Part shown: one piece after another, positions 1 to 33,876 of the stretch | Numbering within the stretch: position 1 is the stretch's first letter | Layout of the letters: every line of letters starts with the position of its first letter | Assembly (NCBI GenBank): GCA_023511995.1 | Contig: JAIMAL010000012.1 | Location: 1 to 64,000 of the forward strand | Direction: 5' to 3' | DNA length: 64,000 nucleotides | Source of the DNA: Burkholderiales bacterium | GTDB taxonomy: Bacteria > Pseudomonadota > Gammaproteobacteria > Burkholderiales > Thiobacteraceae | Notes under the pieces: model-generated | Seen by the model: only the letters and a program-made list of their open reading frames with translations | The model's database searches: none | Told to the model about the DNA's origin: nothing | Made by a program: the position numbers and the translations under genes

Positions 1-152
1 ACGCCTGAACTGGAAAACACCTCATCAGGTATTTATGCAATCATACAGCCGCGTTGCACTTCGAGATTGAATCCACCAAAAGCGATGCGCTACCCGATCC
101 CTCCCGTTCTCGCCCGCGGCCTGCCAGGGAAGGGACGCCAGGAGGCGAAACA

Positions 153-1619
153 GTGAGCTTGGGCGATACCATCCGCCACGGCGCGAAGTGGGTGTTCGTG
201 GGCAACACCGGTTCCCAGATCGTCAACTTCGCGCTGGGCCTGATCCTCGCACGGCTACTGGTGCCAGCCGATTTCGGCATGGTCGCCACGATCCAGATCT
301 TCACGGGGCTCGCGGGGTTCATCGCTGCCGGTGGCATGGGCCAGGCCTTGGTGCGCGCCAAGGAAGCCAGCAAGCGGGACTATGACCTGCTTTTCACCCT
401 GCAGCTTCTCATCGGCTGGCTGATCTTCGCAGGATTCTTTCTCGTGGCCCCGTGGTTCGCCCAATGGTATCAACAGCCCCTTTATGCAGACCTGCTGAGG
501 GTTGCCGCCATCTCCTTCCTGATCCGGCCTTTTTTCAATGTGCCGGCGAATATGCTCTTTCGGGAGATGCGCTTCAAGGCAAAGACCTTGGTGCAGCTTG
601 CGAACATGCTGGCCTACAATGCCGTCAGCCTGAGCATGGCATTTCTGGGCTACGGCCCCTGGAGCCTGATCATCGCGGGCCTCGTCAGTTCTGTGATCGG
701 GGCCGCACTGTTTGCCCGTGCCGCCCGTTGGCTGCCGGGCTTCTGCCTGGACTTCTCCCGCGCCCGTGAGCTCGTTCGCTACGGTTCCCTCGTTTCCACC
801 AACAACCTGATCCTCTATCTGCGGCAGCATGCGCCCGCTTTCTTTCTGTCGCGCAGCCTGGGCCCGGCCTCGGTCGGTCTCTTCGACAAAGCCCAGAGCC
901 TGGCCTCACGGCCCCACGATTTCATCACGGGCTCCGTGTACGAGGTGCTGTTTCGCGCCCTGGCCAAGGAGCAGGACAACCTGGACCGATCACGCTATCT
1001 GTTTTTCCGAAGCCTCAGCCTGGTGGCGGTCTATTCCCTCCCTTTCTACGTGGGCATGGTGTGGCTCGCTCGGCCGCTCGTCGTCACGGTCTATGGCGAG
1101 AACTGGGCGCCGGCTGGAGGAGCGCTGGGAATTCTGGCCTTCGGGAGCGCATTCGCGATCATTGAGAGTTTGTCGGGCGCGGTGCTGGCTGCACGCAACT
1201 GGCTCGACCGTGAACTCTTTCCCCAGGTCACCATGGTGGGCGCAGTCAGCGCGGCCATTCTCCTTGGCCTGCCGTATGGCCTGCCCGGCGTGGCGGCAGG
1301 TCTGGTGCTGGCTCGTCTCTACATGTCCATCCACATGTTCTGGCTGGCCAAAACGGCCCTCAAAGCCCGCTGGAGCGACCTTGCCCGGGCGTTCCACCCT
1401 GCCTTCGTGTTGAACTTCGCCTTAGTTGCGGCCCTGATCGCCACGGAAACGGCGCTTCCAGACACGGTGCGCTCGACCGACTGGCTCTACGTTCTCATCA
1501 TGACGATGGTGGGCGGCACCGTCTATGGTGTGTGCTTTCTTTATCTGCCCCTTCCCGCGCTGGCAACCGAAGCTCAGCGCTGGAAGGTCCGTCTGCGGCT
1601 CGCGCCAGGAGCAAAATGA
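153..1619 (+). CDS. Wzx-like polysaccharide flippase (oligosaccharide exporter)
   Basis: Predicted inner-membrane flippase that turns lipid-linked EPS repeat units to the periplasmic face. The 488-residue product is built of repeated hydrophobic segments (roughly 10-12 helices) separated by short basic loops, as in the MATE/Wzx polysaccharide-biosynthesis family, and its length is normal for the family. The GTG at 153 is preferred because AGGAGG at 140-145 lies 7 nt upstream; an in-frame TTG at 54 would add 33 polar residues without a ribosome site. The gene is first in a plus-strand block and overlaps the next gene by ATGA at 1616-1619. The family assignment rests on overall character rather than a catalytic motif; the transported glycan is unknown. 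Confidence 0.85.
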   Translation: MSLGDTIRHGAKWVFVGNTGSQIVNFALGLILARLLVPADFGMVATIQIFTGLAGFIAAGGMGQALVRAKEASKRDYDLLFTLQLLIGWLIFAGFFLVAPWFAQWYQQPLYADLLRVAAISFLIRPFFNVPANMLFREMRFKAKTLVQLANMLAYNAVSLSMAFLGYGPWSLIIAGLVSSVIGAALFARAARWLPGFCLDFSRARELVRYGSLVSTNNLILYLRQHAPAFFLSRSLGPASVGLFDKAQSLASRPHDFITGSVYEVLFRALAKEQDNLDRSRYLFFRSLSLVAVYSLPFYVGMVWLARPLVVTVYGENWAPAGGALGILAFGSAFAIIESLSGAVLAARNWLDRELFPQVTMVGAVSAAILLGLPYGLPGVAAGLVLARLYMSIHMFWLAKTALKARWSDLARAFHPAFVLNFALVAALIATETALPDTVRSTDWLYVLIMTMVGGTVYGVCFLYLPLPALATEAQRWKVRLRLAPGAK

Positions 1620-2410
1620 AGCCCGATCCCCTTACCCTTCTTCTCCATCGCCGCTCAGCAGGGCACGGCCCGATCATCCTGATGTATCACTCCATCCAAC
1701 CGGGGGACCGGGTGCCTGCCTGGCGGTGGGCGGTCTCGCTCAAGCGCTTCCGGGCGCAGCTCGACTGGCTGGCGGAGGCGGGCTATGCCACGCCGACGGT
1801 CACCGAGCTGTTGCGGGAACCTGCCCGCTTCGGCGCCCGCACCGCCGTCATCACTTTCGATGACGGTTATGGGGACAACCTCGCCGCGTGGGAGGAGCTG
1901 GTCCGGCGGGGGATGAAGGCCACCTGGTATGTCACCACGGGCTATCTGGGCAGCACGCATCCGTGGGGGGATGACCATCCGCAGGGCAGAATGCTCGCGG
2001 CGGAGGAACTGCGGGCCATGGCGGCCTCGGGCATGGAAATCGGCTCCCACACCGTGACCCACCCGCGCCTGCCGGAACTTCCCGATGACATGATCCGCCG
2101 CGAGCTCATTCAGGCAAAGGCCACCCTGGAGGAGGTGCTCAGCCGGCCCGTCGAAAGTTTCGCCTATCCTTTCGGCGCCTGGGACGAACGCTGCGAGGCC
2201 ATGGTCAAGGCGGCCGGCTACACCTCCGCCTGCCACACCCGCGCCGGCTGGGCCCTGCGGGACAACGATCCCTTCCGCCTGCGGCGCCTCGCCGTTTTCA
2301 ACACCGACACCCTGGGCCGCTTCGTGCGCAAGCTGGCTTGGGCGAGCCACGACGTCTCCTGGCGTGACGTGGCGCGCTATGCGCTGTCACGCATTGCGGC
2401 GAGAATGTGA
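1616..2410 (+). CDS. Polysaccharide deacetylase (NodB homology domain)
   Basis: Predicted metal-dependent carbohydrate esterase-4 enzyme that removes acetyl groups from sugar residues of the EPS. The 264-residue product has ILMYHS near residues 21-26, motif 1 FDDGY at 81-85 (catalytic and metal Asp pair), motif 2 HTVTH at 144-148 (metal His pair) and FAYPFG further on. The ATG at 1616 overlaps the flippase stop (ATGA) and follows an AGGA at 1607-1610, so the two genes are probably translationally coupled. No clear signal peptide is visible, so the enzyme may act in the cytoplasm. Acyl group and sugar are not defined. Confidence 0.86.
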   Translation: MKPDPLTLLLHRRSAGHGPIILMYHSIQPGDRVPAWRWAVSLKRFRAQLDWLAEAGYATPTVTELLREPARFGARTAVITFDDGYGDNLAAWEELVRRGMKATWYVTTGYLGSTHPWGDDHPQGRMLAAEELRAMAASGMEIGSHTVTHPRLPELPDDMIRRELIQAKATLEEVLSRPVESFAYPFGAWDERCEAMVKAAGYTSACHTRAGWALRDNDPFRLRRLAVFNTDTLGRFVRKLAWASHDVSWRDVARYALSRIAARM

Positions 2411-2413
2411 ACC

Positions 2414-3343
2414 ATGCCCACCGTCTCCGTGATCATGCCCTGCTACAACGCCGCACGCTTCCTGCCCACCAGCGTGGGCAGCGTGCTGGCGCAGACGTTC
2501 ACGGATTGGGAGCTCATCATCGTCGACGACGGATCCACCGACGGCACCCGCCAATGGTTGTCCACGCAGCAGGACCCACGCATAAGCGTGATCCGCCAAC
2601 CCAACCGTGGCGTATCCGCCGCCAGAAATGCTGGCCTCCAAGTGGCACAGGGTAGGTACGTGGCCTTTCTTGATGCCGACGATACCTGGTCACCGAGGTT
2701 TATGGACAGAATGCTGGCGGCGCTGCGCGCTCGTCCCGAGGCTGTTCTGGCATACTGCGGCTGGCAGAATGTCGGTCTTCCTGGGCCACGGGGCAAGCCA
2801 TTTGTCCCGCCGGATTATGAAAACGAGGCGAAGGGCGAGACGCTGTTCAGAGGCTGCCGGTGGCCCATCCACGCTGCCCTGACGCAGCTTCGGGCCGTGC
2901 AGGCTGCCGGCGGTTTTGACCCTGGGCTCAACAGCGCGGAGGACTACGCCCTCTGGCTGCGTGTCGCCCTCGCCTCGCCCATCATCAGAGTGCCGGAAGT
3001 GCTGGCCTATTATCACTTCCATGGCGGGGGCCAGGCGTCCTCGGACAGAGCACGAGCCGCATTGCAGCACCTGCGGGCGCAACAACAGTTCCTGCGGCAG
3101 AACCGTGCATTCCACACCAAGCTTGGCAAAAAGCGTGCACGCACTTTGATGATGGGCGAACTTCTCCAAAAAGGGTTCGAGTGTTACTGGCAGCGAAACC
3201 TGCCGGCGGCGCGGACCATCTTCCGCACGGTGATGAGGCACGGCTACGGCACGCTGCGGGACTGGCAATACATGCTGCCCGCGCTGCTGCCGGAGGCAGT
3301 GCACCGGTGGCTGCTGCGTCTTGCCGAAGAAAAGAGGTGCTGA
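2414..3343 (+). CDS. Family 2 glycosyltransferase
   Basis: Predicted GT-A fold, inverting, nucleotide-sugar-dependent glycosyltransferase of EPS assembly. The 309-residue protein opens with VSVIMPCYN (residues 4-12), has VDDGSTDGT at 37-45 and the DXD-type metal-binding segment FLDADD at 85-90; the acceptor half is not diagnostic. It starts 3 bases after the deacetylase stop and ends directly before the next GT2. Donor and acceptor sugars cannot be deduced. Confidence 0.88.
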   Translation: MPTVSVIMPCYNAARFLPTSVGSVLAQTFTDWELIIVDDGSTDGTRQWLSTQQDPRISVIRQPNRGVSAARNAGLQVAQGRYVAFLDADDTWSPRFMDRMLAALRARPEAVLAYCGWQNVGLPGPRGKPFVPPDYENEAKGETLFRGCRWPIHAALTQLRAVQAAGGFDPGLNSAEDYALWLRVALASPIIRVPEVLAYYHFHGGGQASSDRARAALQHLRAQQQFLRQNRAFHTKLGKKRARTLMMGELLQKGFECYWQRNLPAARTIFRTVMRHGYGTLRDWQYMLPALLPEAVHRWLLRLAEEKRC

Positions 3344-3344
3344 C

Positions 3345-4268
3345 ATGAAGGTCTCGTTCGCATTCTGTACCTACAACCGCGCGGCCCGGCTGAAAAGACT
3401 CGTGGCCGCCATGCGTGCGCAAAGCTGCCCGGTTCCCTTCGAGATTCTGGTGGTGAACAACAACAGTTCGGACGCCACGCCCGAGATTCTCGCCGAGCTC
3501 AGCAAACAGCCGGGGCCGCCCCTGCGCTGGGTCACCGAGCCGGTGCAGGGCATCGTCGCTGCGCGCAATCGGGCGATCGAGGAGGCGCTGGCAAGTGACA
3601 TCCTGGTCTTCATCGATGACGACGAGATTCCCCTGCCGGGGCTGCTCGAGGCGGCTTGCGACGCGATTTTCAATGAAGGCGCGGAATGCGCCGGTGGGCG
3701 CATCGAACTGGATTTCAGTGAAACACCGCGACCCCCGTGGCTGGATGAGGAACTGGCAGGCTTTTTGGGACGCCTGGACTACGGCGAAAAGCCGTTCTGG
3801 ATAAGCACCGAAGCCACCCCGGTCTGGAGCGGCATCGTCGCCTACGCCACGAGGCTCTTCCGTGACGATCCCAGCTTGCGCTTCGACAAACGGTTTGACC
3901 GGGTCGGGCATGGCATCGGCGGCGGTGAGGATGCGATGATGTTCCATGCCCTCCTGGAACGTGGCGCAAGAATCCGTTACCGCCCCGACATGGCTGTTCT
4001 CCATGCCGTCGAGCCGTGGCGGCTGAAGCGATCCTATTTCCTCAGGCTCCATTACCGGGCGGGGCTTAGACAGGGCCAGCACATCCTGCCCGATTTTCCG
4101 CGGACTGTCTGGGGAATGCCGCCGTTCCTGATTGCCCAGTTTCTCAGGCAGGCGGTCAAAACGGTGGGCAGGGCCCTCGGCGGCCGGCCAGGCCTTTTGC
4201 GGCAGGCCATGACTGCCGCCCATACGCTGGGCAGCCTGCGCGGCTACAGAAAGCGCGCGAGGGGATGA
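3345..4268 (+). CDS. Family 2 glycosyltransferase
   Basis: Second GT2 of the plus-strand block, 307 residues. It begins VSFAFCTYNRA, carries the nucleotide-sugar motif DDDE at about 91-94 and a GGGED motif near residue 195 typical of the general-base region. The ATG at 3345 is chosen over an in-frame start 24 bases upstream because AAAGAGG (3331-3337) lies 7 nt before it and the upstream start would overlap the preceding gene. Its N-terminal region resembles that of the GT2 half of the fusion gene downstream (both begin with a CTxNRAA motif), so the two may be paralogues. Substrate unknown. Confidence 0.87.
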   Translation: MKVSFAFCTYNRAARLKRLVAAMRAQSCPVPFEILVVNNNSSDATPEILAELSKQPGPPLRWVTEPVQGIVAARNRAIEEALASDILVFIDDDEIPLPGLLEAACDAIFNEGAECAGGRIELDFSETPRPPWLDEELAGFLGRLDYGEKPFWISTEATPVWSGIVAYATRLFRDDPSLRFDKRFDRVGHGIGGGEDAMMFHALLERGARIRYRPDMAVLHAVEPWRLKRSYFLRLHYRAGLRQGQHILPDFPRTVWGMPPFLIAQFLRQAVKTVGRALGGRPGLLRQAMTAAHTLGSLRGYRKRARG

Positions 4269-4271
4269 GCC

Positions 4272-4568
4272 ATGATCGACATCGCCATCCGTTTCCATGA
4301 CACCTCCGCCATCAGCGATCCCACGCTGGAGCGCAGATTGCTGGCGCGAGTCGGCCGGCATGGCATGCGGGCCAGCTTCGCCGTGGTCCCCCATGCGGGA
4401 GGGGGTGCGCTGCGCGCGGACGATGGCCGCCCGGAGGCGGCGCGCGCCGGCACGGTGGAAATCGCCGAGCCATGGATACCGCCACGAATCCAGTCCCTTT
4501 TCCCGACCCACTGCCTGATGTTGCAACCGCTGTTTCTCTCCCCCCGACGAAAGGAAGCACAAACGTGA
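4272..4568 (+). pseudogene. Frameshifted remnant of a polysaccharide deacetylase-like gene
   Basis: An intact reading frame from ATG 4272 encodes about 98 residues whose first 70 look like the start of a deacetylase-like protein: a beta strand DIAIRF, a conserved-looking SDPTLERRL helix, then ASFAVVP. The next expected element, VEIA followed by a His-containing HGYxH motif, is broken: VEIA is in frame 1, while SHGYRHES continues in the +1-shifted frame from about 4467. A single indel near 4465 therefore best explains the sequence. Nothing recognisable follows before the sulfotransferase gene begins at 4565, so the gene is also truncated. The sequence shows the split motif; the family assignment is inference. 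Confidence 0.6.
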
Positions 4569-5521
4569 CGCAGCCCTCCACCACCCCCTCGCCCCCCAAG
4601 GGCCCGGTCTTCATCGTCGGCGCCCCTCGTTCCGGGACGACGCTGCTGCAATACCGGCTGCGCAATCATCCGCGCATTTCGCTGCCCACCGGCGAGTCAC
4701 ACTTTTTCATCCCGCTTCTGGCGCGTGAGGCGGAATTCGGGGATCTGCGGGACGCGCAGAACATCGCCCGGGTCCTGCAGGCGATGCACCGGCAGAGCCA
4801 GGAATTCCTGGAAACAGACCTGCACGGCATGAAGTTCGACATCGGGCGGTTGGCGATGGAGCTGGCCGCAGAGGGCAGGCACAGCGTGGCGGCGATCATA
4901 TCCGGCATTTTCGAAAAAAACGCCCTGGGCGAGGGAAAGATGCGCTGGGGTGACAAGACCCCCTACTACGTCCTCCATCTCCCCACTTTGCTGCGGTGGT
5001 GGCCCGACGCCCAGTTCATCCACATCATCCGCGATGGGCGGGATGTCGCACTTTCCCTGCTTGGGCGTCGTCACGATTTCCGAGTCTACAACTTCTTCAC
5101 CGCAGGCGAGTATTGGAAACGCTATGTGGAAAAAGGTCATGCCCACGGGAGCCCACTACGGCCGGACCAATATCTCGAGGTCCGCTATGAAGCATTGCTG
5201 GCCGACCCGGAAGGCACGCTGCGCCGGATATGTGAGTTCCTCGGCGAGGAATACCTGGACAAACTGCTTGACGTGGAAACCGTGGATGCGCCCGGGAAGA
5301 CGCCACTGGTCCACCAGCCCATCAAGCCGGACAACGCAGGCAAGTGGAGGCAGAAAATGACAAGCTTGCAGGTCCGCGCCTTCGAGGCGGCTGCCGGTGA
5401 CACGCTTTCCCGCTTCGGCTACGAGCTCGCCACCCATGAAGGGCCATTGTTTCCTGGGCTTGCCACCGCTTACCGCCTGCACAACCGGATCGCCACGGCT
5501 TACTGGCGCCAGCACCGGTGA
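4565..5521 (+). CDS. Sulfotransferase family protein
   Basis: Predicted PAPS-dependent sulfotransferase of the large prokaryotic Sulfotransfer family, 318 residues. The 5'-phosphosulfate-binding loop GAPRSGTT is at residues 19-26 and the 3'-phosphate-binding segment IIRDGRDV is near residue 155. The GTG at 4565 is chosen because AAGGAAG (4551-4557) precedes it and the protein then begins shortly before the first beta strand; an in-frame ATG at 4472 lies inside the deacetylase remnant. The gene overlaps the fusion gene downstream by GTGA (5518-5521). In an EPS locus it most simply sulfates a polymer sugar or a lipid-linked intermediate, but some family members act on other acceptors. Confidence 0.82.
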   Translation: MTQPSTTPSPPKGPVFIVGAPRSGTTLLQYRLRNHPRISLPTGESHFFIPLLAREAEFGDLRDAQNIARVLQAMHRQSQEFLETDLHGMKFDIGRLAMELAAEGRHSVAAIISGIFEKNALGEGKMRWGDKTPYYVLHLPTLLRWWPDAQFIHIIRDGRDVALSLLGRRHDFRVYNFFTAGEYWKRYVEKGHAHGSPLRPDQYLEVRYEALLADPEGTLRRICEFLGEEYLDKLLDVETVDAPGKTPLVHQPIKPDNAGKWRQKMTSLQVRAFEAAAGDTLSRFGYELATHEGPLFPGLATAYRLHNRIATAYWRQHR

Positions 5522-8500
5522 CACTCACCATCCTCATCTGCACCCACAACCGCGCGGCGCTGCTTGAGCAGACGCTGGCCTCCCTCAACGCAGCGCTACG
5601 GCCAGCCATGGGGGTGCAGATTCTGGTGGTCGCCAATGCCTGCACCGACGACACCATCGGCTGCCTGCGCGCCTACCAGGCACGGCAGGAGGCCATGGGT
5701 TGGCTGCCGCTGAGGTTCCTCGAAGTGCCGATCCCCGGCAAGTCCCATGCGCTCAATGCTGCGATCCTGGAAATCGACACGGAACTGACGGCCTTCGTCG
5801 ATGACGACCACCGGGTCGATCCTGGCTATCTGAGGGCCATCGAGGAAGCGGCACGCGCCTGGCCCACCGCGGGGCTTTACTGCGGCCGCATCCTGCCCGA
5901 CTGGGACGGTCGCGAGCCCGCCTGGGTGCACGACGAGGGGCCCTACCGCATCTATCCCCTGCCGGTACCCCGCTACGACCAGGGGGAGCAACCCAAAACC
6001 ATGACCGCGGAGGAGGGGCCCATTCCCGGCGGCGGCAACCTTGTGGTCCGGCGTGAGGTGTTCGCCATTGCCGGGCGTTTTTCCACCGAACTGGGACCGC
6101 GCGGTCACGATCTCGGCGGAGGCGAGGACAGCGAGTTCGTTCTCCGGGCCATGGCGCGCGGGGTGCGCTGCCAGTATGTGCCGGCCATGGTGCAATACCA
6201 CCACGTGGACGTGGCACGCTTCCGGCTCGGTTATCTCATGCGCAAGGCGTATCAGCGCAGCCGCTCCACCGCGCGCATACGGGGAAATGGGCGGGTTCCG
6301 CTCTACATGTGGCGCAAGGTGGGGGAATACGCTTACCACAGTGTGTTCTCGCTGTCCTGGGCAAGGCGCCGGTTTTTTCTCGTACGCACGGCGGCGGCCC
6401 TGGGCGAGGTGCACGGCCGGCGCGAATCCGGTCATTTTGGAAACGGCCTGAGGCTGCCTGTCGATCACGGGCTGCGTGGAGCCTGGCTGCTTGCGGCCAC
6501 CGTGGTCGTCTCGGCGGCGGCTGCCCTCATCAGCGGCGGCACCAGCATCCTGCCAATGTTACTTGCGCCTGCAGCCTGGGTCGCCATAGCGGCAACCCTG
6601 CTGCTGCTAGCGAAATCCGTTTTGGACTTCTCCCAGACCGGCCCGCGTCTGCGGCAGGAGATCCTCCGACGCTACCGCTTCTACACCCTTTACGCGCTGG
6701 CGCGGCTCAGCCTCTGGGTGTTTGCGCTGATGCTTTTCACCGGCTGCATCGGGGCATTCGCCTACCTCCTCGTCATTACGGCGGTAGGAGCGAAGGGGTC
6801 GATGCCTGGGGCCACCCTCGCCGCCGCGCTGGGGATCCTTGGCGCCTTGGCGTTCCAGTTCGTCCGCAAGCTGCGTTTCAACCCGGGGCTCTTGGTGGCT
6901 TCCATGCACTACCGCATGAGCCGGCTTTACCCGTTGTGGGAATGGATGACGCCAGGCCGGATCATGACCCTCAAAGTCGGCGGGCTTGGTCTTTTCGCCG
7001 TGCTGTTGGTCGCGGCCTCGTGGCGGCTTGTGCAAGGGGGCCGCATGCCGGATTTAGCGGCACTGTGGGCAATCGCCGCGTTCCTGGCCAGCACGGTGGC
7101 CTGGGCCTCGTGGGAACCCGATGCCCGCCCCCCGCGCCGCATCCCGCGCCGACGGACTGCTCGACCCAACCTGCTCCTGATTGGCTCCGACACCCTGCGC
7201 GCGGACCGTCTTGGCGCCCTGGGTTACCCCCGCTTGCTCACCCCCCATCTCGACCGACTCGCCGAAACCGGCACGCTGTTTGCCAACTGCTACGTCCCCT
7301 GCGCCCGCACGGCGCCCAGTCTCGTGTCCCTCCTCACCGGCACGTGGCCCCACACCCATGGCATCCGCGACAACTTCGTCGCGGACGATGAAACGAAACT
7401 CGCGGTGGATGCCCTGCCGCAACTCTTGCGCGCGCAGGGCTACCGCACGGTGGCGATTTCAGACTGGTGCGGCGCGGACATGGGCAAGCTGAGCTTCGGC
7501 TTCCAGCACACGGAGTTGCCAAAGGACCAATGGAACCTGAAATATCTGATCCGGCAGGGGCCCAAGGATCTGCGCCTTTTCCTTTCCCTGTTCCTCCACA
7601 ACCGTTTGGGTCGCCTGCTTTTGCCCGAGATTTACTACCTGGGCGGCGTGCCCCTGACCCAGCCGCTGGGCAGGCGGGCGAGGCGGCTTTTGAGCCGGCT
7701 GGCGGCCACGGGCGAGCCTTTTTTCCTCAACGTGTTCTATTCCACGACCCATCCGCCCTTCGCCTCAGAATGGCCCTGGTACACACGCTTTGCCGATCCG
7801 GCATACCGGGGTCCCTCGAAATTCGCCATGGCGAGGCTCGCCGATCCTTTTGACATCATCCGGCGCCAGGGAGCACCGAAAGAGGAATTCGATCTCGATC
7901 AGATCATCGACCTCTATGATGCCTGTGTGGCGGAATTCGACGATGAGGTGGGCAGGATGCTGCAACACCTCGAGGCCTGCGGTCTGGCGGAGAACACCAT
8001 CGTGGTCGTCTATTCGGACCACGGCATGGAATTCTTCGAACACGACACCTGGGGCCAGGGCAATTCGGCAGTGGGCGAGGCAAGCCCACGGGTGCCGCTG
8101 GTGATTCGCGACCCCCGCACGCCCGGACGGGGACGGGTCGAGGAAGTGGTACGCTCCATCGACCTTGCGCCGACACTGCTGGAGATGGTGGATCTGGCCC
8201 TGACACCCACGATGGAGGGTGTCTCCCTTGCCCCTTTCCTCCGGGGTGACGAAGCCATCCCCACGCTCGATGCTTTCAACGAAACCGGAATCTGGATCAC
8301 CGAGATTCCTGGCCTGCCGGCTGGGCACCTGCGCTATCCGGACCTTTTCGAGCTTCTGGACGTGCCCGATCCCAGCAGCGGTACCCTCGCCATCAAGAGA
8401 CAGTACCGGGACACAATCATCCGGGCCAAGGATCGTATGATCCGCCACGGGCAGTGGAAGCTTGTCTACCAGCCACTCAGCGAAGGCTTTCTGCTGCGCC

Positions 8501-8670
8501 TCTACGATCTTTCCAGCGACCCCGCCTGCCAATGGGATGTGGCGGCACAGCACCCCGATATCACCGAGGCCCTGTGGACCCGGCTGGCGGCGTGGATGAG
8601 GCCGGAGGGGGTGGGGCATCCTCATCCGGACAGAAGCGACACCAGGGATTGGTCTTCTTCGCCTGCGTAG
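5518..8670 (+). CDS. GT2 glycosyltransferase fused through membrane helices to a sulfatase/alkaline-phosphatase-fold domain
   Basis: A 1050-residue, apparently membrane-bound bifunctional protein. Residues 1 to about 290 are a GT2 domain starting LTILICTHNRAAL, with FVDDDHRVD as metal motif and GGGEDSEF in the acceptor region. About six hydrophobic segments lie between roughly 318 and 532. From residue 551 the frame reads PNLLLIGSDTLRAD, a sulfatase-type N-terminal strand, and later YSDHGMEFF supplies the Asp-His metal ligands. Where sulfatases carry the formylglycine motif CxPxR this protein has TAPSL, with Thr598 at the nucleophile position, as in phospho-transferring members of the superfamily. 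It starts at GTG 5518 overlapping the sulfotransferase stop. The C-terminal 36 codons overlap the opposite-strand TPR gene. Inference: the sequence fits transfer or hydrolysis of a phosphate-type substituent on the glycan better than classical sulfatase activity. Confidence 0.82.
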   Translation: MTLTILICTHNRAALLEQTLASLNAALRPAMGVQILVVANACTDDTIGCLRAYQARQEAMGWLPLRFLEVPIPGKSHALNAAILEIDTELTAFVDDDHRVDPGYLRAIEEAARAWPTAGLYCGRILPDWDGREPAWVHDEGPYRIYPLPVPRYDQGEQPKTMTAEEGPIPGGGNLVVRREVFAIAGRFSTELGPRGHDLGGGEDSEFVLRAMARGVRCQYVPAMVQYHHVDVARFRLGYLMRKAYQRSRSTARIRGNGRVPLYMWRKVGEYAYHSVFSLSWARRRFFLVRTAAALGEVHGRRESGHFGNGLRLPVDHGLRGAWLLAATVVVSAAAALISGGTSILPMLLAPAAWVAIAATLLLLAKSVLDFSQTGPRLRQEILRRYRFYTLYALARLSLWVFALMLFTGCIGAFAYLLVITAVGAKGSMPGATLAAALGILGALAFQFVRKLRFNPGLLVASMHYRMSRLYPLWEWMTPGRIMTLKVGGLGLFAVLLVAASWRLVQGGRMPDLAALWAIAAFLASTVAWASWEPDARPPRRIPRRRTARPNLLLIGSDTLRADRLGALGYPRLLTPHLDRLAETGTLFANCYVPCARTAPSLVSLLTGTWPHTHGIRDNFVADDETKLAVDALPQLLRAQGYRTVAISDWCGADMGKLSFGFQHTELPKDQWNLKYLIRQGPKDLRLFLSLFLHNRLGRLLLPEIYYLGGVPLTQPLGRRARRLLSRLAATGEPFFLNVFYSTTHPPFASEWPWYTRFADPAYRGPSKFAMARLADPFDIIRRQGAPKEEFDLDQIIDLYDACVAEFDDEVGRMLQHLEACGLAENTIVVVYSDHGMEFFEHDTWGQGNSAVGEASPRVPLVIRDPRTPGRGRVEEVVRSIDLAPTLLEMVDLALTPTMEGVSLAPFLRGDEAIPTLDAFNETGIWITEIPGLPAGHLRYPDLFELLDVPDPSSGTLAIKRQYRDTIIRAKDRMIRHGQWKLVYQPLSEGFLLRLYDLSSDPACQWDVAAQHPDITEALWTRLAAWMRPEGVGHPHPDRSDTRDWSSSPA

Positions 8671-9454: not shown

Positions 9455-9528
9455 GATTCGTCCTCCGGTGAACATCTGACAAGGAACCCGCCGCCTCATC
9501 GAAGCGCGCCGTGTCCCGGCGGGGCCGC

Positions 9529-12626: not shown

Positions 12627-13672
12627 GCCACAAGCCGCGCCCAACCCTGGGCAAGGGAGGGGGTGCGCACCCAGGCGGGGTCGCGCCGCAGCAGCGCTTC
12701 CCCCAGTTCGGCGCTGGAAGCAAAGCGAAGGTCCGGGTGACGTTCCAACGCCGCCTCTAAAGCGCACCGCAAGGCCTGGCGCGCTGCCGCCGCGCCCTCC
12801 CCGAGATAGTTGAAACGGTGGGTTTCCACCAGACAGGCGCGACCGGCGCGGGCGCGGGCGGCTAGCCCCGCCAGCAGGCGCTCCGGTTCGTGGCCCCGCG
12901 CCGGTTCGAAATAGACATCCCGCACCAGGTAATGCACGCCAGTAGGGGCGGCCTCGCCGGCGCGGATACCCTGCCGGTCGGCCACCAGCCGGCCCGCGTC
13001 ATCGCGCCCGATGTAGCGGGCGCCGGGGGTGACGACGAAGCGCACACCCGCCTCGAACCAGGCCCGTTCCACCTCGTCGTTCCAGACGAAAGTGTTGGGC
13101 ACCGCCACCGCCGGCACCAATCCGAAAAGTTTTTTGAGGAGCGCCGCCTCTTCCTGCACCGCGCGGCGGATGGCGGCCGCCGGCAGGGGCCGCGTCGGCA
13201 GCGCCGCGGCATCCACCCAGCGGCTTTGCAGGCTCACCGGCAGGCTTTCGGTGGGCGCCTCCCCGGCAAGCCAGGCAGCGATTTCCGGGTCACTGCGGCG
13301 GGTAAGGAGCGCCTGCGGCCAGTAATGTTCCAGCCCATGCCACTGGATGGCGAACACACCCTCGGTCACGCCGAGACGCAAAGCCGCGAGCACCGGCGCC
13401 TGGGAAGGATGGTCGAGGGTCAACCTTCCGCCAGCCCCCCCTTCGCCCAGGCGCTGGCGATCGAGGATGCCGGAGACCAGCCCGATGGTCATCACCGCTT
13501 TTCTCCCCGCGCCGTCGCGCAGGCTGCCGAGCAAGCCAGCAAGCTGCACCAGGGCTTCCGCCTGCGCGTTCACCCGGGCCGGCGCATCCGCCCCCCAGTC
13601 GTCGCTTTCCAGGATGAGCACGGGATGGCGCAAAGCAGGTTCCCGCAAGGCTAGGAGATCAGGCCATCTCAC
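12623..13672 (-). CDS. Divergent polysaccharide-deacetylase-like protein
   Basis: A 349-residue protein with no confident family name. It has the layout of a NodB-type deacetylase: an Asp pair in LILESDDWG at residues 19-27, an H-x3-H in QWHGLEHYW (motif-2-like metal ligands), and a late His in LVETHRFNYLG that could serve as the general acid. The long insert between these elements and the ESDDWG form of motif 1 differ from ordinary chitin or peptidoglycan deacetylases. The start GTG 13672 overlaps the sulfotransferase stop as GTGA. Inferred role: de-acylation of an EPS sugar; other metal-dependent hydrolysis is possible. Confidence 0.6.
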   Translation of the reverse strand: MRWPDLLALREPALRHPVLILESDDWGADAPARVNAQAEALVQLAGLLGSLRDGAGRKAVMTIGLVSGILDRQRLGEGGAGGRLTLDHPSQAPVLAALRLGVTEGVFAIQWHGLEHYWPQALLTRRSDPEIAAWLAGEAPTESLPVSLQSRWVDAAALPTRPLPAAAIRRAVQEEAALLKKLFGLVPAVAVPNTFVWNDEVERAWFEAGVRFVVTPGARYIGRDDAGRLVADRQGIRAGEAAPTGVHYLVRDVYFEPARGHEPERLLAGLAARARAGRACLVETHRFNYLGEGAAAARQALRCALEAALERHPDLRFASSAELGEALLRRDPAWVRTPSLAQGWARLVA

Positions 13673-14592
13673 AGGGCATACCCCATGCGGCGCGCCACCG
13701 GCTCCACCCTGTCCATGACCCGTTCGATGCGTTGCCGGTTGCGGCCATCCTTCCACTTGTCGAGGCGGATTTCGGAAAAGGCATTGTAGGGGGTGGCGAG
13801 CACGTTCGCGCAGTGGTCTTCCAGCGCGGGGGTGAAGCTAAGGTCCGCCTCGGTGAAGAGCCGCCGGAATTCCCCCACCGGATCGCGCACCAGATCCTCG
13901 TAGAAGACCTCCGACCACTGCGCGCCGGGCACGGCGGCTTTGGCCTCGAGGATAGCGCTGTTGATGGCAACGTACTGGAAGGCGCACACCTCTTCGATGG
14001 TGGCGCGGGTGTAGGCCCGCCAGCCCTCGGCGAGGAAGAAACACCAGCGGGTGTAGCGGCCGCCGTCGATGGCCACGGCCTCGGGCAGAGCGGCCGACCA
14101 GGTGGCGAATTCCTCCGGTTTGCCCCAGCCCTCGATGAGGCTATGCAGATTGTCCCCCGGGCTCCTTTTGACGAAGAGGAAATGGGCATCGGGAAACAGG
14201 GCCGCGAGATAGGGCACGCAGAGGCCGTTCTGGTTGTTCTTGTCCACCCAGCGGCTGCGTCCGGTCCAGGCATAGAAATAGCGGGTGACGAAGTCCCGGT
14301 CGGAGGCCGAGGCATGCCGCGCATCAAGGGCATGGGTGTCCCAGCCCCGTTCCCGCGGATGGTGCAGCTCCATCCAGAAGTCGTGGGTCTCCCGCTGCAG
14401 CGTGCCCAGTTCGCGGGACTCGGAAAAGGTCTTGTACACCAGGGTGGTGCCGGCGCGACTGCAGCCGATGACGATCACCGGCCGGATTGCCGGCGGCCGC
14501 ACCAGGTCCCACCATACCCCGCGCAGGGCGCGCACCGCCGCGCGCCCGTGATGGCGCAGGGTTTTATCGACTTTCAACCAGAATTCACTCAA
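13669..14592 (-). CDS. Sulfotransferase family protein
   Basis: Second predicted PAPS-dependent sulfotransferase of the locus, 307 residues. The phosphosulfate loop is GCSRAGTT (residues 43-50), and KRSPGDNLHS near residue 150 is the 3'-phosphate region. The start is TTG at 14592, supported by GAGAGG about 8 nt upstream; no in-frame ATG or GTG lies nearby. It is first in a divergent minus-strand block, 42 bases from the asparagine-synthetase-like gene, so a bidirectional promoter probably lies between them. It is only distantly similar to the sulfotransferase at 4565, so a different acceptor is likely. The exact substrate is unknown. Confidence 0.76.
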   Translation of the reverse strand: MSEFWLKVDKTLRHHGRAAVRALRGVWWDLVRPPAIRPVIVIGCSRAGTTLVYKTFSESRELGTLQRETHDFWMELHHPRERGWDTHALDARHASASDRDFVTRYFYAWTGRSRWVDKNNQNGLCVPYLAALFPDAHFLFVKRSPGDNLHSLIEGWGKPEEFATWSAALPEAVAIDGGRYTRWCFFLAEGWRAYTRATIEEVCAFQYVAINSAILEAKAAVPGAQWSEVFYEDLVRDPVGEFRRLFTEADLSFTPALEDHCANVLATPYNAFSEIRLDKWKDGRNRQRIERVMDRVEPVARRMGYAL

Positions 14593-14634: not shown

Positions 14635-16467
14635 ATGACCCACCTCCGGGAAGATTCCCTCCTTTGCGGCTGGCTGGGCACCGGGGCGCCCGATGCGGCG
14701 GCATTGCTGGCGCAGATGGGTGCCACCACGCCGCTGGTGTGCGAACCCCAGGCGGCCATCGCCGCCCAGTCGCCTTTCGCTCGCCTCTTCACCCATTGCG
14801 AGGGAAACCTCGCCGTGGCACTGCTGGGCCGGCCCCGCATTGCCGAAGGCACGCCGGCAGCCGGCCCCCGCCCGCAGGATGTGGCGGCCACCGTGGCCGC
14901 GCTCTACCGCCAGCGCGGCACCGCCATGCTGCAAGGCCTGCGCGGGCCCTTTGCCCTCGCCCTCATGGATACGGCGGAGAAGACACTGCTCCTTGCCGTC
15001 GATCGCATGGGCATCGAACCCATGGGCTTTGCTTTGGTGGAAGACGGCATCGTCTTCGGGCGCAGCCTGCAGGCGGTGACCGCCCACCCCAAGGTGGGGC
15101 GCCGGCTCGCGCCCCAGGGTCTGTTCGACTATCTCTACGCCCACATGGTGCCTTCCCCCGACAGCATCTACCAGGGCGTGCAGAAACTTCTGCCGGCGCA
15201 GTATCTGCTTTGGCGGGCGGGACGGGTAGAGCAGGGGTTTTACTGGCAGCCCCGCTTCGGCGATGACGAAAAAACCGAAGCGTTCACCGCCCTGGCGCAG
15301 ACGCTGCAGGCGCTGCTCGAGGAGAGCGTGAAGACGGCGCTGGGGGAGGATCGCGCCGGGGCCTTCCTTTCCGGTGGCCTCGACAGCTCCACCGTCTCCG
15401 GCATGCTGGCCCGACTCACCGGTCGGGCGGAGACCTTTTCCATCGGCTTTGCCGCCGAGGGCTACGACGAGATGGAATATGCGCGCCTGGCGGTGCGGCA
15501 TTTCGGCCTGAGCGCCCACGAATATTACGTCACGCCGGCCGATGTGGTGGCCGCCATCCCCCTCATCGCCCGCGCCTATGACGAGCCTTTCGGCAACGCT
15601 TCCGCCGTGCCCACCTATTACTGCGCCCTGCGCGCGCGGGAGGCGGGGCTGCCGGTACTGCTTGCCGGTGATGGCGGCGATGAAATCTTCGGCGGCAACG
15701 CGCGCTATGCCAAGCAGATGGTATTCGAACTCTACCAGGACCTGCCCCGCCCTCTGCGCGCGGGTGTCATCGAACCCCTGGCGCAGCGCCTGCCGGAGGG
15801 CATCCCGCTCCTGCGCAAACTCAAAAGCTATGTGGCCCAGGCGCGGGTGCCCCTGCCGGATCGGCTGGAGACCTACAATTTTCTGCACCGGGACCCCATC
15901 GCGGAAATCTTCGATCCCGACTTCCTGCGCCGGGTGGATGCGGAACGGCCGCTTGCCATCCAGCGCGAGGTCTATTTCCGCACGCCTGCGCGCCACCCCA
16001 TCGACCGCATGCTGTATCTGGACTGGAAGCAGACCCTTGCCGACAACGATCTGCGCAAGGTGGGCCGGATGACGGAACTGGCCGGCGTGGAGGTGCGCTA
16101 TCCCATGCTGGACGAACGCCTGGTGGAGTTTGCCGCGAGCCTGCCCCCTGCCTACAAGGTGCGCGGCCAGACCCTGCGCTGGTTTTTCAAGGAGGCGCTG
16201 CGGGATTTCCTGCCCGCGGGGATCATCACCAAGCCCAAACACGGCTTTGGCCTGCCCTTCGGCGTGTGGATGAGGGAAGACCCGGAACTCCACGCGCTCG
16301 CGCTCGCCAGCCTGCACGCCTTCCGTGCGCGGGGCATTCTGCGCGAAGCTTATCTCGACAGACTGATTGCAGCGCATGAAAGCGAACACGCGGGCTATTA
16401 CGGTGTGATGATCTGGGTGGTCATGATGCTGGAACAGTGGCTGCAGGCGCACCCTGTCTCCCTCTAG
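14635..16467 (+). CDS. Asparagine-synthetase-like protein lacking the N-terminal glutaminase cysteine
   Basis: A 610-residue protein of the AsnB fold. The C-terminal synthetase domain is intact: the ATP pyrophosphatase loop LSGGLDSS is near residue 247 and LLAGDGGDEIFGG and KVGRMTELAGVEVRYPMLDE follow. The N-terminal half retains only the general scaffold (LRGPFALALMD). The catalytic MCG start is absent: the frame begins MTHLREDSLLCGW with Cys at position 11, no start codon precedes that Cys, and NGEIYN-type glutamine-binding motifs are missing. It may therefore use free ammonia or join another amine through acyl-adenylate chemistry, as beta-lactam synthetase does. No ribosome site is obvious before ATG 14635. 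It converges with the O-glycosylation ligase gene, overlapping by 47 bases. Confidence 0.78.
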   Translation: MTHLREDSLLCGWLGTGAPDAAALLAQMGATTPLVCEPQAAIAAQSPFARLFTHCEGNLAVALLGRPRIAEGTPAAGPRPQDVAATVAALYRQRGTAMLQGLRGPFALALMDTAEKTLLLAVDRMGIEPMGFALVEDGIVFGRSLQAVTAHPKVGRRLAPQGLFDYLYAHMVPSPDSIYQGVQKLLPAQYLLWRAGRVEQGFYWQPRFGDDEKTEAFTALAQTLQALLEESVKTALGEDRAGAFLSGGLDSSTVSGMLARLTGRAETFSIGFAAEGYDEMEYARLAVRHFGLSAHEYYVTPADVVAAIPLIARAYDEPFGNASAVPTYYCALRAREAGLPVLLAGDGGDEIFGGNARYAKQMVFELYQDLPRPLRAGVIEPLAQRLPEGIPLLRKLKSYVAQARVPLPDRLETYNFLHRDPIAEIFDPDFLRRVDAERPLAIQREVYFRTPARHPIDRMLYLDWKQTLADNDLRKVGRMTELAGVEVRYPMLDERLVEFAASLPPAYKVRGQTLRWFFKEALRDFLPAGIITKPKHGFGLPFGVWMREDPELHALALASLHAFRARGILREAYLDRLIAAHESEHAGYYGVMIWVVMMLEQWLQAHPVSL

Positions 16468-17725
16468 GAGCCACGGGGGCCGGCGCCGTGGCATGCTCCT
16501 CCTTGAGTAGGATCACCTTGCTCAGGATGATGAGCATCAGCACGTGGTAGTAGAGGTCGAAGTAACTCAAGCCCAGGAAGGCGCCCGCCGCATAGTAGGC
16601 CATGAGGGTCACCTGGCCCATGGCGGCAAGATCGGCAGCCCATTTCCTTTGCGGATCTTTTTTTGCGCGCCGGATCACCCATGACCCCGTCCGCCAGGTA
16701 AGAAACCCGAGCAGCAGCCACAACGCCAAGCCGGGGAAGCCATGCTCGCCCAGTTGCTCGAAATAGATGCTGTGCACGTCGTGCACGTTGTCCGGCTCCG
16801 GCGCGTAAAGGGCGAAGGTGGGGCGCTGAAACATCTCGAAACCGCCGCCGGTCAGCCGGGCCTTGGCCACGTTGTAGGCAGTCCACCAGGCATTGATGCG
16901 CCCCTGGGCGGAGGCATCCTCCTCATAGGTTTGGATGGTCTGCATGCGCTCGTACCACTGGGGCGGCATGATGAGATAGACAAGGCCGGCGGCCAGCACC
17001 ACGAGGAAGGCCGTGGTGAACTTGTTGCGGCTCTTCCACCAGAAAATGGTGCCCATCACCGCCGCCCCCACCAACGCCCCGCGGGACTGGCTGCCGATCG
17101 CCGCCAGTGCGGTGAGAGCCATGCCCGTCGCAAGACCCAGGCGGAGGATGCGGCGCGGCTCGGTGAGCTGCAGGTAACGCATCAGGGGGATGGTCATGAG
17201 GAGGGCCAGGGCCAGCTCGTTGTTGCCACCGATGAAGGACCCCTCCGGTCCCTGCACCCGGTACACGCCGCCATGGAGGATGGTGAAAATGCCGCCCTTG
17301 ATGCCGTAGAAACCCAAGGAGAGCACGATCACCCAGACGAGCAGGCGCAGCTTGTGCCGGTCGTTGATCACGAGCGGCGTGATGAAGACCATCAGCATGA
17401 TTTTCATCACCTTCTCCCACTGCGTCCAGGCGAGCTGGGGATAGAAGGCGAAAAAGGTGGTGAAGGTCATCCATAAGACAAGCAGCAGCAGGACGGTCAT
17501 CTCCCGCGTCCAGGGCATGCGCTTGGGCTCCTTCGAGAACAGCACCCCGGTGAGGGTGGCCAGGGCGGCGAGATAGGCCCAGGGGAAGGAAAAGGCAAAG
17601 CCATAGGCCAGCCGGTGGGGGTTCATGTAGCTGATCCAGGAATAGAGGTACAGGCCCCAGTGGGGCCGCGACAGGGCAAAAGGCAGCACGCCAAAGAACA
17701 CCCCCGCCAGCAACAAATCCCTCAT
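16421..17725 (-). CDS. Putative O-glycosylation ligase, exosortase A-associated (Wzy/WaaL-like)
   Basis: Polytopic membrane protein of 434 residues, with about ten or more hydrophobic segments and a large periplasmic region after ERMQTIQTYEEDASAQGRIN. The N-terminal HWGLYLYSWISYMNPHRL and the later GSQSRGALVG and DVHSIYFEQLGEHGFPGL are as expected for the exosortase A-associated O-antigen-ligase-like family. The role is polymerisation or transfer of the glycan to an acceptor. It is the last gene of the core operon, coupled by ATGA (17725-17722) to the PaaK-like ligase. Polymerase and ligase functions cannot be separated from sequence. Confidence 0.85.
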   Translation of the reverse strand: MRDLLLAGVFFGVLPFALSRPHWGLYLYSWISYMNPHRLAYGFAFSFPWAYLAALATLTGVLFSKEPKRMPWTREMTVLLLLVLWMTFTTFFAFYPQLAWTQWEKVMKIMLMVFITPLVINDRHKLRLLVWVIVLSLGFYGIKGGIFTILHGGVYRVQGPEGSFIGGNNELALALLMTIPLMRYLQLTEPRRILRLGLATGMALTALAAIGSQSRGALVGAAVMGTIFWWKSRNKFTTAFLVVLAAGLVYLIMPPQWYERMQTIQTYEEDASAQGRINAWWTAYNVAKARLTGGGFEMFQRPTFALYAPEPDNVHDVHSIYFEQLGEHGFPGLALWLLLGFLTWRTGSWVIRRAKKDPQRKWAADLAAMGQVTLMAYYAAGAFLGLSYFDLYYHVLMLIILSKVILLKEEHATAPAPVAPRGRQGAPAATVPAS

Positions 17726-19074
17726 GGCGCCACCTTGCTCACGATGTAACGGTATTTGCCCGAGGCTTCCCGGGGAATCTCCTGCACCCGCTCGATTTCG
17801 ATGGTCACCCCTTCGCCCAGCCGCCGCACGAGGCCCGCGCGGATCGTGTCCAGCGCGCCTTCGGCGAAGTTGGGACCGGTGACGAGAAACACCCGGGTAA
17901 GCTCACGGCTTTCCTGGACGATCTTGAACTGCTCCACCCCCGGCACGTCCCGCACCACATAGATGAGGGCAAGGCCGTGCATCACCGTGCCATCCCGTGC
18001 CACGACGAAGTCGGTGGTGCGGCCCTGAATTTCCCGGAGGAGGGGCAGGCCCCGCCCACAGGGGCAAGGCCGGTCGTCCAGCACCCCGACGTCGCCGGTG
18101 CGGTAGCGGATGAAGGGGAAATCGCCGGTGGCCAGATGCGTGACCACGATCTCCCCCGCCTCTCCCGCCGGCAGCACGCGCCCGTCGGGGGATACGATCT
18201 CCACGATGATGTCCTCCACCATGATGTGCATGCCGCCCTGCGGGCATTCGTGGGCAATGAACCCCGCATCGCGCCCGCCATAGCCATTGGCCACGGGACA
18301 GCCGAAGACGCGGGAGATGATCGCCCGCTGCTCGTCATAGAGACGTTCCGAAGTAACGAAGGCCACCCGGATGCCCAGGTCATCCATCGCCACTTTCCGC
18401 TTCTCCGCATGGCGGGCGATGAGGGCAAGCGAAGAAGGATAGCCAAAGAGCATGCGCGGCCTCACCCTGCGGATGGTGACAAGGAATTCGTCGAGCCGCG
18501 TTTCCGACATTTCGAAGGCCGGCAGAAGATGGGTGCGCAGCAGGCGGTCGCGCAGGGCGCGCAGCCGGTCCTGCCGGGTGAGCTCGATGGGCGACCCCCA
18601 GACGACGATCTCCGGATCACCGATGTCCACCCCCCACCAGCGGGTGGCACGCCATTTCGCCGCCACATCGTGGGAAATCCTTTCCCTGCCCACGTAGAAG
18701 ATCAACGGCTCACCGCTGGAGCCGCCGGTGTTGAAGCGGGAAAGTCGCTGCGCATCGCTGGCCTTCAGCGCCTCGGAATGGGCGCGGATGTCCGCCTTGG
18801 TGAGGAGCGGCAGCCGTGCCAGATCCGTGAGGCTCTTTACAGCGCCGGGATCGAAGCCCTCTCTTCGGAACAGGTCGCGGTAGTACGGCACGCTGCGGGC
18901 GGCTCGATCAAGCAGCCGGTGCAGACGAGCAAGCCGCAGCGATTCCAGCTGCTCGCGGGACCACCACTGGGTCTTTTCCAGTTCACGCCGCACGGCGACG
19001 GTGTTATGTCCCTTGAGCCGCTCGTGGAGGGGGAAGAGGACGCGGGAGGCGAAGGCGGTGTAGAGGTCGGTCAT
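17722..19074 (-). CDS. PaaK-like adenylate-forming ligase (phenylacetate-CoA ligase / F390 synthetase family)
   Basis: Predicted ATP-dependent acyl- or aryl-adenylate-forming enzyme of 450 residues. The phosphate-binding loop reads NTGGSSGEPLIFYVG, followed by WGSPIEL; a PCPCGRGLPLL segment with three Cys recalls the metal-binding insert in PaaK/CapK-type proteins, and YRTGDVG is the usual hinge-proximal motif. The ATG at 19074 overlaps the GT4 stop (ATGA), ruling out a 31-codon extension. Relatives in capsule and EPS loci activate carboxylic acids for polymer decoration; here the acid is unknown. With the FemAB-like and AsnB-like genes it suggests acyl or amide substituents on the glycan. 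Confidence 0.82.
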   Translation of the reverse strand: MTDLYTAFASRVLFPLHERLKGHNTVAVRRELEKTQWWSREQLESLRLARLHRLLDRAARSVPYYRDLFRREGFDPGAVKSLTDLARLPLLTKADIRAHSEALKASDAQRLSRFNTGGSSGEPLIFYVGRERISHDVAAKWRATRWWGVDIGDPEIVVWGSPIELTRQDRLRALRDRLLRTHLLPAFEMSETRLDEFLVTIRRVRPRMLFGYPSSLALIARHAEKRKVAMDDLGIRVAFVTSERLYDEQRAIISRVFGCPVANGYGGRDAGFIAHECPQGGMHIMVEDIIVEIVSPDGRVLPAGEAGEIVVTHLATGDFPFIRYRTGDVGVLDDRPCPCGRGLPLLREIQGRTTDFVVARDGTVMHGLALIYVVRDVPGVEQFKIVQESRELTRVFLVTGPNFAEGALDTIRAGLVRRLGEGVTIEIERVQEIPREASGKYRYIVSKVAP

Positions 19075-21477: not shown

Positions 21478-21486
21478 GCGCTTTCC

Positions 21487-23415: not shown

Positions 23416-23429
23416 GAATGGAAACGGGA

Positions 23430-31366: not shown

Positions 31367-31377
31367 AGCAGTCCTCG

Positions 31378-32907: not shown

Positions 32908-32937
32908 GGTTGCTTGCTTCCTCCCCTTGGCCACCCC

Positions 32938-33858: not shown

Positions 33859-33876
33859 GGGTGACTCCCTTCAGGG

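Follow-up and report, generated by a model that had tools for sequence, protein, structure and literature searches.

A GT2 glycosyltransferase fused to a threonine-type sulfatase-fold domain, predicted to face the cytoplasm, in a Burkholderiales exopolysaccharide cluster

What does a sulfatase-fold domain do when it carries threonine at the nucleophile position and shares a polypeptide with a sugar-adding enzyme? The question is raised by a gene (5518..8670, + strand) in a 64,000-nucleotide stretch of DNA from a Burkholderiales bacterium of the Thiobacteraceae (GenBank assembly GCA_023511995.1, contig JAIMAL010000012.1, positions 1 to 64,000; here called the window). The gene joins a GT2 glycosyltransferase, six membrane helices, and a Thr-type domain of the alkaline phosphatase (AP) superfamily. 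A first, sequence-only reading had taken the threonine as a sign of phosphoethanolamine or phosphoglycerol transfer. The fusion, its conservation, the invariance of its active-site positions, its predicted cytoplasmic topology, and its gene context were computed here. The reading that we favor, at just short of an even chance, is that the product is a cytoplasm-facing bifunctional inner-membrane enzyme of an XrtA-type exopolysaccharide pathway, in which the GT2 would add a sugar and the Thr domain would add an anionic group, most likely sulfate.

The fused gene and its invariant positions

The frame starts with GTG and encodes 1,050 amino acids. Pfam placed a GT2 domain (PF00535) at residues 4 to 182 and a Sulfatase domain (PF00884) at residues 550 to 892 (158 bits); the type I phosphodiesterase family PF01663 also matched the product (64 bits). 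The N-terminal domain (residues 1 to 306; 5518..6435, +) has the GT-A fold and the acidic metal/nucleotide motif of GT2 enzymes: TarS (5tzk) is one example among its structural matches (Z 23.6, root mean square deviation [rmsd] 4.6, 239 residues aligned), and the acidic residues D95 to D97 (DDD) and E203-D204 are invariant in all 67 full-length sequences. Six membrane helices follow (residues 317 to 339, 341 to 370, 387 to 423, 429 to 454, 479 to 506, and 510 to 531; 6466..7110, +), and the sulfatase-fold domain with its C-terminal subdomain occupies residues 549 to 1032 (7162..8613, +). AlphaFold2 modeled the whole protein with a mean predicted local distance difference test (pLDDT) score of 88.3 and a predicted template modeling (pTM) score of 0.82, and residues 1 to 548 with 88.6 and 0.62, respectively. 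Pfam, hydropathy, and the two models thus agree with the sequence-only reading that a GT2 domain, about six helices, and an AP-superfamily domain share one frame, and its coordinates and residue numbers were correct.

Conservation was assessed in an alignment of 67 full-length rows (66 distinct homologues and the window protein) spanning residues 1 to 5 through at least 1010, from which the genome's own loci L001 and L003 and the duplicate L004 were excluded. Three derived alignments, A1 (63 rows), A2 (33 rows), and A3 (43 rows), are parts of this set; for A1, near-copies, L087, and the minus-strand L005 were removed and stand-alone and separate GT2 rows were added. End to end, 155 positions are invariant. 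These include the metal ligand positions D558 (7189..7191, +) and D834-H835 (8017..8022, +), the nucleophile position T598 (7309-7311) within PCARTAPSL (residues 594 to 602; 7297..7323, +), which aligns with the Cys of solved sulfatases, and likewise H745. The formylglycine (FGly) motif C-x-P-x-R is absent; TAPSL stands in its place in 67 of 67 sequences, with Leu for the motif Arg. In the AlphaFold2 model, helix 598-607 begins at T598, and strands 551-557 and 827-833 precede D558 and D834-H835, an arrangement predicted to put T598, D558, and D834-H835 where the nucleophile and metal ligands of sulfatases sit. Judging from these sequences, both domains look catalytically constrained and apparently active. 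The helical segment at residues 650 to 733 (7465..7716, +; largely helical in the model) is the most conserved of the eight regions compared (mean 0.84; 0.836 to three decimals), in line with its strict retention elsewhere in the catalytic half. The replacement of CxPxR by TAPSL, with Thr598 at the nucleophile position, and the retention of the Asp and Asp-His ligands had been noticed beforehand in the single sequence and hold throughout the family.

The same domain order, which the sequence-only reading had proposed to look for in other genomes, was found in many independent ones: 80 loci were retained from genome contigs, mostly as full-length matches, with 44 to 72% identity in the best segment. 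This recurrence rules out a sequencing or assembly artifact, and the invariance of D558, T598, D834, and H835 likewise shows that the fusion is real.

Predicted membrane topology

Alignment-averaged hydropathy showed six peaks between residues 320 and 531, and both AlphaFold2 models have six long helices within residues 317 to 531. A single-sequence hydropathy scan gave an extra match at residues 20 to 38, inside the GT2 domain, where the models have no membrane helix. When the GT2-plus-membrane model was used as a structure query, the listed matches were filled by GT2 entries. Mean counts of lysine plus arginine (K+R) were 11.0 on the GT2 side, 4.9 in loop 2, 6.2 in loop 4, and 4.1 in the stretch before the sulfatase-fold domain; loops 1, 3, and 5 had 0.8, 0.4, and 1.3, respectively. 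Net positive charge followed the same alternation: it was seen on the GT2 side in 67 of 67 sequences, in loop 2 in 66, in loop 4 in 67, and in the presulfatase stretch in 58, and in loops 1, 3, and 5 in 17, 8, and 14 of the 67, respectively. Since GT2 enzymes need cytoplasmic nucleotide sugars and the chain then crosses the membrane six times, the sulfatase-fold domain should lie back in the cytoplasm. Thus, helix count and loop charges together predict a cytoplasmic domain, with the positively charged loops on the same side.

Versions with other architectures mostly agree with this prediction. Five stand-alone modules (L098, L109, L110, L112, and L010) begin just before helix 2 of the fused protein; the first helix is missing in L112 and L098, which retain the positive stretch preceding the domain. 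By simple hydropathy, L098, L112, and L010 have five helices, and L109 and L110 have four because one weak helix stays under the threshold. All five carry net positive charge in the loop that follows their own first helix, and three (L112, L098, and L010) also in the stretch leading to the domain. The fused form therefore has one helix more than the stand-alone form, so that both domains would stay inside. Where another GT2 is attached (three versions examined), that enzyme contributes one or two hydrophobic segments of its own, and the same six come after. Several observations pull the other way. The K+R contrast is weaker per residue, the short loops 1 and 5 having 0.10 and 0.13 against 0.16 to 0.20, so that loop 5 comes close to the inner loops; L109 and L110, both stand-alone, have net negative charge in the stretch ahead of the domain; and the topology of L010, with its positive N terminus, is ambiguous.

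Nature of the transferred group

Among the structural matches listed for the sulfatase-fold domain was 6hr5 (Z 38.0, rmsd 2.6 Å, 361 residues aligned); the phosphonate monoester hydrolase (PMH) 4uph gave Z 34.9 (rmsd 3.4 Å, 395 aligned). All 50 matches listed were sulfatases, a sulfamidase, or PMH; LtaS and EptA entries were not among these 50, an absence that does not exclude them. The modeled domain as a whole, including the C-terminal subdomain, appears to have the fold of FGly sulfatases (SulfAtlas S1) and PMHs (S1_0). Structure prediction, which the sequence-only reading had suggested together with superposition on EptA, LtaS, and arylsulfatase, thus bore out a sulfatase fold with T598 at a helix start and brought up no EptA or LtaS among the matches listed. 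NCBIfam scores for the sulfatase half, all below cut-offs, were 132 bits for arylsulfatase, 120 for choline-sulfatase, and 103 for PehA and 25.6, 23.7, and 20.3 bits for YejM, LtaS, and CptA, respectively.

In a quick tree of 51 proteins, which has long branches and includes 13 of the 18 haloarchaeal proteins described below, 21 Cys enzymes and four Ser-type or divergent S1 rows fell on one side of a branch with Shimodaira-Hasegawa-like approximate likelihood ratio test (SH-aLRT) support of 99, and five LtaS-like proteins with the motif E-T-DH fell on one side of another. The D-T-DH proteins, namely, the family studied here, a Leptospira plasmid protein, and the haloarchaeal proteins, lay outside both groups. 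Unlike FGly sulfatases, then, this family has Thr for the FGly Cys/Ser and Leu for the motif Arg and is placed outside the Cys group; this placement shows no recent cysteine loss, and the idea of a recently degenerate FGly sulfatase as the leading explanation was rejected. The first metal ligand is Asp in the family and Glu in the LtaS-like proteins of these genomes, to which the other PF00884 protein of the window's genome (contig C2 of G000, locus L002; E-T-DH motif) belongs. Among the rows scored, the best match outside the family (222 bits, Thr at the nucleophile position) was an 817-amino-acid membrane protein with a Thr-type sulfatase-fold domain on Leptospira borgpetersenii plasmid lbp1 (L137, 5059-7512; WP_004278338.1). 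According to the SulfAtlas paper of 2016, Thr replaces the catalytic Cys/Ser in 30 of 59 Pfam Sulfatase seed sequences, FGly formation from threonine has never been demonstrated, and Thr-bearing proteins are not accepted as functional sulfatases without experiment (PMC5066984).

The gene neighborhood points to sulfation. The stop codon of a PF13469 sulfotransferase gene (4472..5521, +; Pfam) overlaps the start of the fused gene by 4 bp (GTGA), and the cluster contains a second one (13669..14592, −; 72 bits). Upstream on the same strand are, by Pfam, genes for a Wzx-type flippase, a polysaccharide deacetylase, and two GT2 enzymes (54..4268, +). The XrtA/PEP-CTERM exopolysaccharide cluster in which the fused gene lies has, at 16421..35418 (−), genes for an O-ligase, an amidotransferase, FemAB, a deacetylase, and chain-length and tyrosine kinase proteins, with XrtA-EpsI at 24602-26113. 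The genome has four APS (adenosine 5'-phosphosulfate) kinase matches, two of them strong. Using a sulfotransferase profile built from family loci over three rounds, with single members checked by Pfam, we detected a sulfotransferase at 70 of the 80 loci; among the 52 loci whose flanks reach at least 6.5 kb on either side, 49 have one. In 35 of the 80 it is on the same strand and no more than 1.3 kb upstream of the frame. Ten loci have none. Eight of their genomes were checked (those of L099 and L102 were left aside), and seven have PF13469 elsewhere. In a 300-genome sample of the order, all 14 genomes with the family were XrtA positive, versus 59 of the 286 others, and PF13469 occurred in 12 of the 14, versus 18 of the 59 XrtA-positive genomes without the family; these counts assume the same 300 genomes in each draw and ignore relatedness. 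The cluster probably makes a sulfated polysaccharide. In this it resembles the synechan (xss) pathway, a Wzx/Wzy exopolysaccharide cluster with sulfotransferase genes, whose account, in its available parts, differs in describing no fusion of a glycosyltransferase to a sulfatase fold (PMC8205485).

Haloarchaeal plasmids offer a second line of evidence. Six of 30 listed records (41 matched) were picked by hand, together with the query's own plasmid, and the Thr share in this set is biased because the selection started from a Thr protein. The seven plasmid loci (L141 to L147) are glycan clusters, and each includes between one and four soluble sulfatase-fold proteins, mostly of the Thr type, which are candidate Agl30/Agl31-type enzymes. 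These relatives adjoin glycosyltransferase genes and, in most loci examined, also epimerase or flippase genes. The nucleophile position is Thr in 15 of the 18 proteins, Ser in 2, and unaligned in 1, and all 18 have Asp and Asp-His at the metal positions. Six score below 40 bits or not at all with the profile, which makes their alignment less sure; the 12 with at least 50 bits comprise 11 Thr and 1 Ser. None of the 18 has a strongly hydrophobic segment, and the proteins therefore look cytosolic. No sulfotransferase is annotated in the seven stretches, whose plasmid tables are incomplete.

The precedent is provided by Agl30 (VNG1056C) and Agl31 (VNG1057C) of Halobacterium salinarum, which a 2025 report describes as glycan sulfotransferases (PMC11980604). 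According to that report, deleting Agl30 and Agl31 cuts the di-sulfated glycan 250-fold and over 50-fold, respectively; when both genes are missing, each of the two sulfated forms falls more than 300-fold, and a group the size of sulfate is added upon expression in Haloferax volcanii (PMC11980604). The mass shift recorded in that host is about 80 Da, given to two decimals, a value that alone would also suit phosphate; for the native glycan the report refers to nuclear magnetic resonance (PMC11980604). Like the domain studied here, Agl30 and Agl31 are AP-superfamily proteins of a glycan assembly cluster; one is membrane bound and one is cytosolic, as shown by fractionation, which does not give the side of the membrane (PMC11980604). 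Our protein is predicted to face the cytoplasm. Sulfation of a glycan built up on a lipid carrier depends on Agl30 and Agl31, and 5G2U and 6HHM, the solved structures nearest to them (PMC11980604), also appear among the matches listed for our domain. Unlike it, they serve archaeal N-glycosylation and are not, in the available parts of the report, described as glycosyltransferase fusions (PMC11980604).

We infer that the Thr domain is a transferase, that its acceptor is a lipid-linked glycan, and that the group is sulfate. The N-terminal GT2 would add a sugar to a polyprenyl-linked repeat unit at the cytoplasmic face. The cytoplasmic C-terminal domain, with Thr598 and one metal site (D558, D834, and H835), would then put an anionic group on this repeat unit before the flippase exports it. 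That group would most likely be sulfate, and the enzyme would be a bacterial counterpart in kind of Agl30/Agl31. The cluster, the compartment, and the archaeal precedent make sulfate our first choice.

A number of points tell against this assignment. We know of no precedent for a Thr-sulfate intermediate, and Cys-to-Ser sulfatase mutants get trapped. Canonical sulfotransferases are already present in the same clusters, and the L092 genome has the domain with no PF13469 found. Within the same family groups, PF13469 also occurs in 5 of 7 XrtA-positive genomes without the domain; its link to the family is confounded by kinship. In the 51-protein tree, no supported clade unites the haloarchaeal with the bacterial Thr groups, and the link from Agl30/Agl31 to the domain would run through fold, place, and context. 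As for the archaeal report itself, VNG1063H, the third protein of the Agl cluster, had no effect on sulfation, and a term search of the text gave no mention of the active site or of PAPS (3'-phosphoadenosine 5'-phosphosulfate) (PMC11980604).

The chief alternative is a phosphate-type transferase at the cytoplasmic face, in which Thr598 would pass phosphoethanolamine, phosphoglycerol, or phosphate from an inner-leaflet lipid or nucleotide donor to the lipid-linked glycan. EptA, LtaS, MdoB, and BcsG are membrane-anchored AP-superfamily enzymes that decorate glycans or lipids through a Thr (in BcsG, Ser) nucleophile, and Thr-phosphate chemistry is well established. Thr is the nucleophile also in the LtaS-like proteins of these genomes, and the conserved membrane-near loops suit a lipid donor. 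In the Escherichia coli Bcs complex, the GT2 synthase BcsA works beside the phosphoethanolamine transferase BcsG, with which it is found in one complex (9fmv). In the capsule of Cobetia marina, sulfate and phosphoglycerol occur together (PMC11766843); a phosphate group is thus compatible with a sulfation context. The chemistry, the BcsA/BcsG pairing, and this capsule make the phosphate-type reading a serious rival, which we nonetheless consider doubtful. EptA, LtaS, MdoB, and BcsG are separate proteins with the catalytic domain outside the cytoplasm, whereas the present domain, which shares the Thr nucleophile position with EptA and LtaS, is predicted inside, less clearly so in two of the five stand-alone forms. 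It further departs from LtaS-like proteins in its Asp for their Glu and in its low LtaS and CptA scores; all listed structural matches are sulfatases or PMH, which does not thereby exclude LtaS/EptA, and the surrounding cluster speaks for sulfation. Going from Thr to a phosphoethanolamine/phosphoglycerol-type transferase, as the sequence-only reading did, is therefore not supported in that form, given the predicted compartment, the scores favoring arylsulfatase, choline-sulfatase, and PehA over LtaS and CptA, the best solved relatives, and the haloarchaeal Thr-type enzymes of glycan clusters. Its other half, that sugar addition and decoration are coupled at the membrane, can fairly be drawn from the fusion, with sulfate as the more likely decoration.

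Hydrolysis is distinctly unlikely. A Thr-type phosphodiesterase or phosphatase, editing or recycling a lipid-linked or nucleotide intermediate beside the GT2, would accord with the PF01663 match and with the fold shared with PMHs; the fusion to a glycosyltransferase and the differing GT2 partners would fit a decorating enzyme better. Least likely, and very improbable, is a degenerate or regulatory domain, a former FGly sulfatase without its cysteine serving as a scaffold or sensor (a role proposed for YejM/PbgA), which the missing C-x-P-x-R motif would suit and which the invariant metal and nucleophile positions and the placement of the family outside the Cys enzymes oppose.

Distribution and exchange of the GT2 partner

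The family loci come from Thiobacillus, Nitrotoga, Thauera, Aromatoleum, and Sulfuriferula and from records labeled Gammaproteobacteria or Proteobacteria. The 14 genomes in the 300-genome sample matched at 660 bits or more, and the next matches were at about 80 bits, apart from a truncated copy in G037 (242 bits); the family is therefore discrete in this sample. That copy (L136; contig C4:97224-97718) is an extra sulfatase-fold segment interrupted by stops and lies about 1.3 kb beyond the intact gene in the downstream direction. In phylum samples of 398 and 299 genomes (strict limits of 1e-40 and 1e-25), only the genome of the window itself matched. A broad spread was rejected on these results together with the score gap in the order.

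Within the family, the GT2 half varies. In five loci (L084, L089, L090, L091, and L094), the module is fused to a different GT2, as judged from the sequences and, for L084 and L094, from Pfam. In five others (L098 and L109 to L112), the GT2 gene is separate and 51 to 60% identical to the fused one; it adjoins the module gene in L098, and a sulfotransferase and a further GT2 gene intervene in L109 to L112. The module of L010 stands alone. A quick tree of 83 modules requires four changes for the alternative GT2 (at least three of them unavoidable given strongly supported branches) and two for the split form; long branches come together in this tree (L098 with L010, plus two further pairs), gain and loss are indistinguishable, and the architecture changes exclude five rows without a clear N terminus (L066, L082, L095, L099, and L102). 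The Thr module is the constant part and the sugar transferase the exchangeable part.

Taken singly, the fold, the Thr variant, and glycan sulfotransferases of the AP superfamily are already known. The listings of term searches among open-licence papers showed no description of a GT2-sulfatase-fold fusion, of its cytoplasmic orientation, or of GT2 partner exchange. We tentatively propose, at somewhat below an even chance, that the family represents a cytoplasm-facing, Thr-nucleophile bacterial glycan sulfotransferase of the sulfatase fold, fused to the glycosyltransferase whose product it would sulfate; with its exchangeable GT2 partners, it would amount to a second sulfation chemistry beside the PAPS-type enzymes encoded in the same clusters. 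To our knowledge, many Thr-type Sulfatase-family proteins have no known function. In the present family, such a domain is linked with a single sugar-adding step, a single predicted compartment, and a single type of polysaccharide cluster. The family occurs in the cultured genera Thauera, Aromatoleum, and Thiobacillus, and sulfate versus phosphate transfer to glycans by Thr-type sulfatase-fold enzymes becomes a single-mutant question. The family might also account for some of the chemistry of XrtA-type floc and biofilm polysaccharides.

Other genes of the window recur around family members. A protein encoded at 12623-13756 (−), which has no Pfam match, has relatives in 52 of 88 loci, and a tetratricopeptide repeat protein encoded at 8561-9499 (−) has relatives in 63 of the 88. 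Beside the exopolysaccharide cluster lies a NodI/NodJ-type ATP-binding cassette transporter pair (37672-39464, +).

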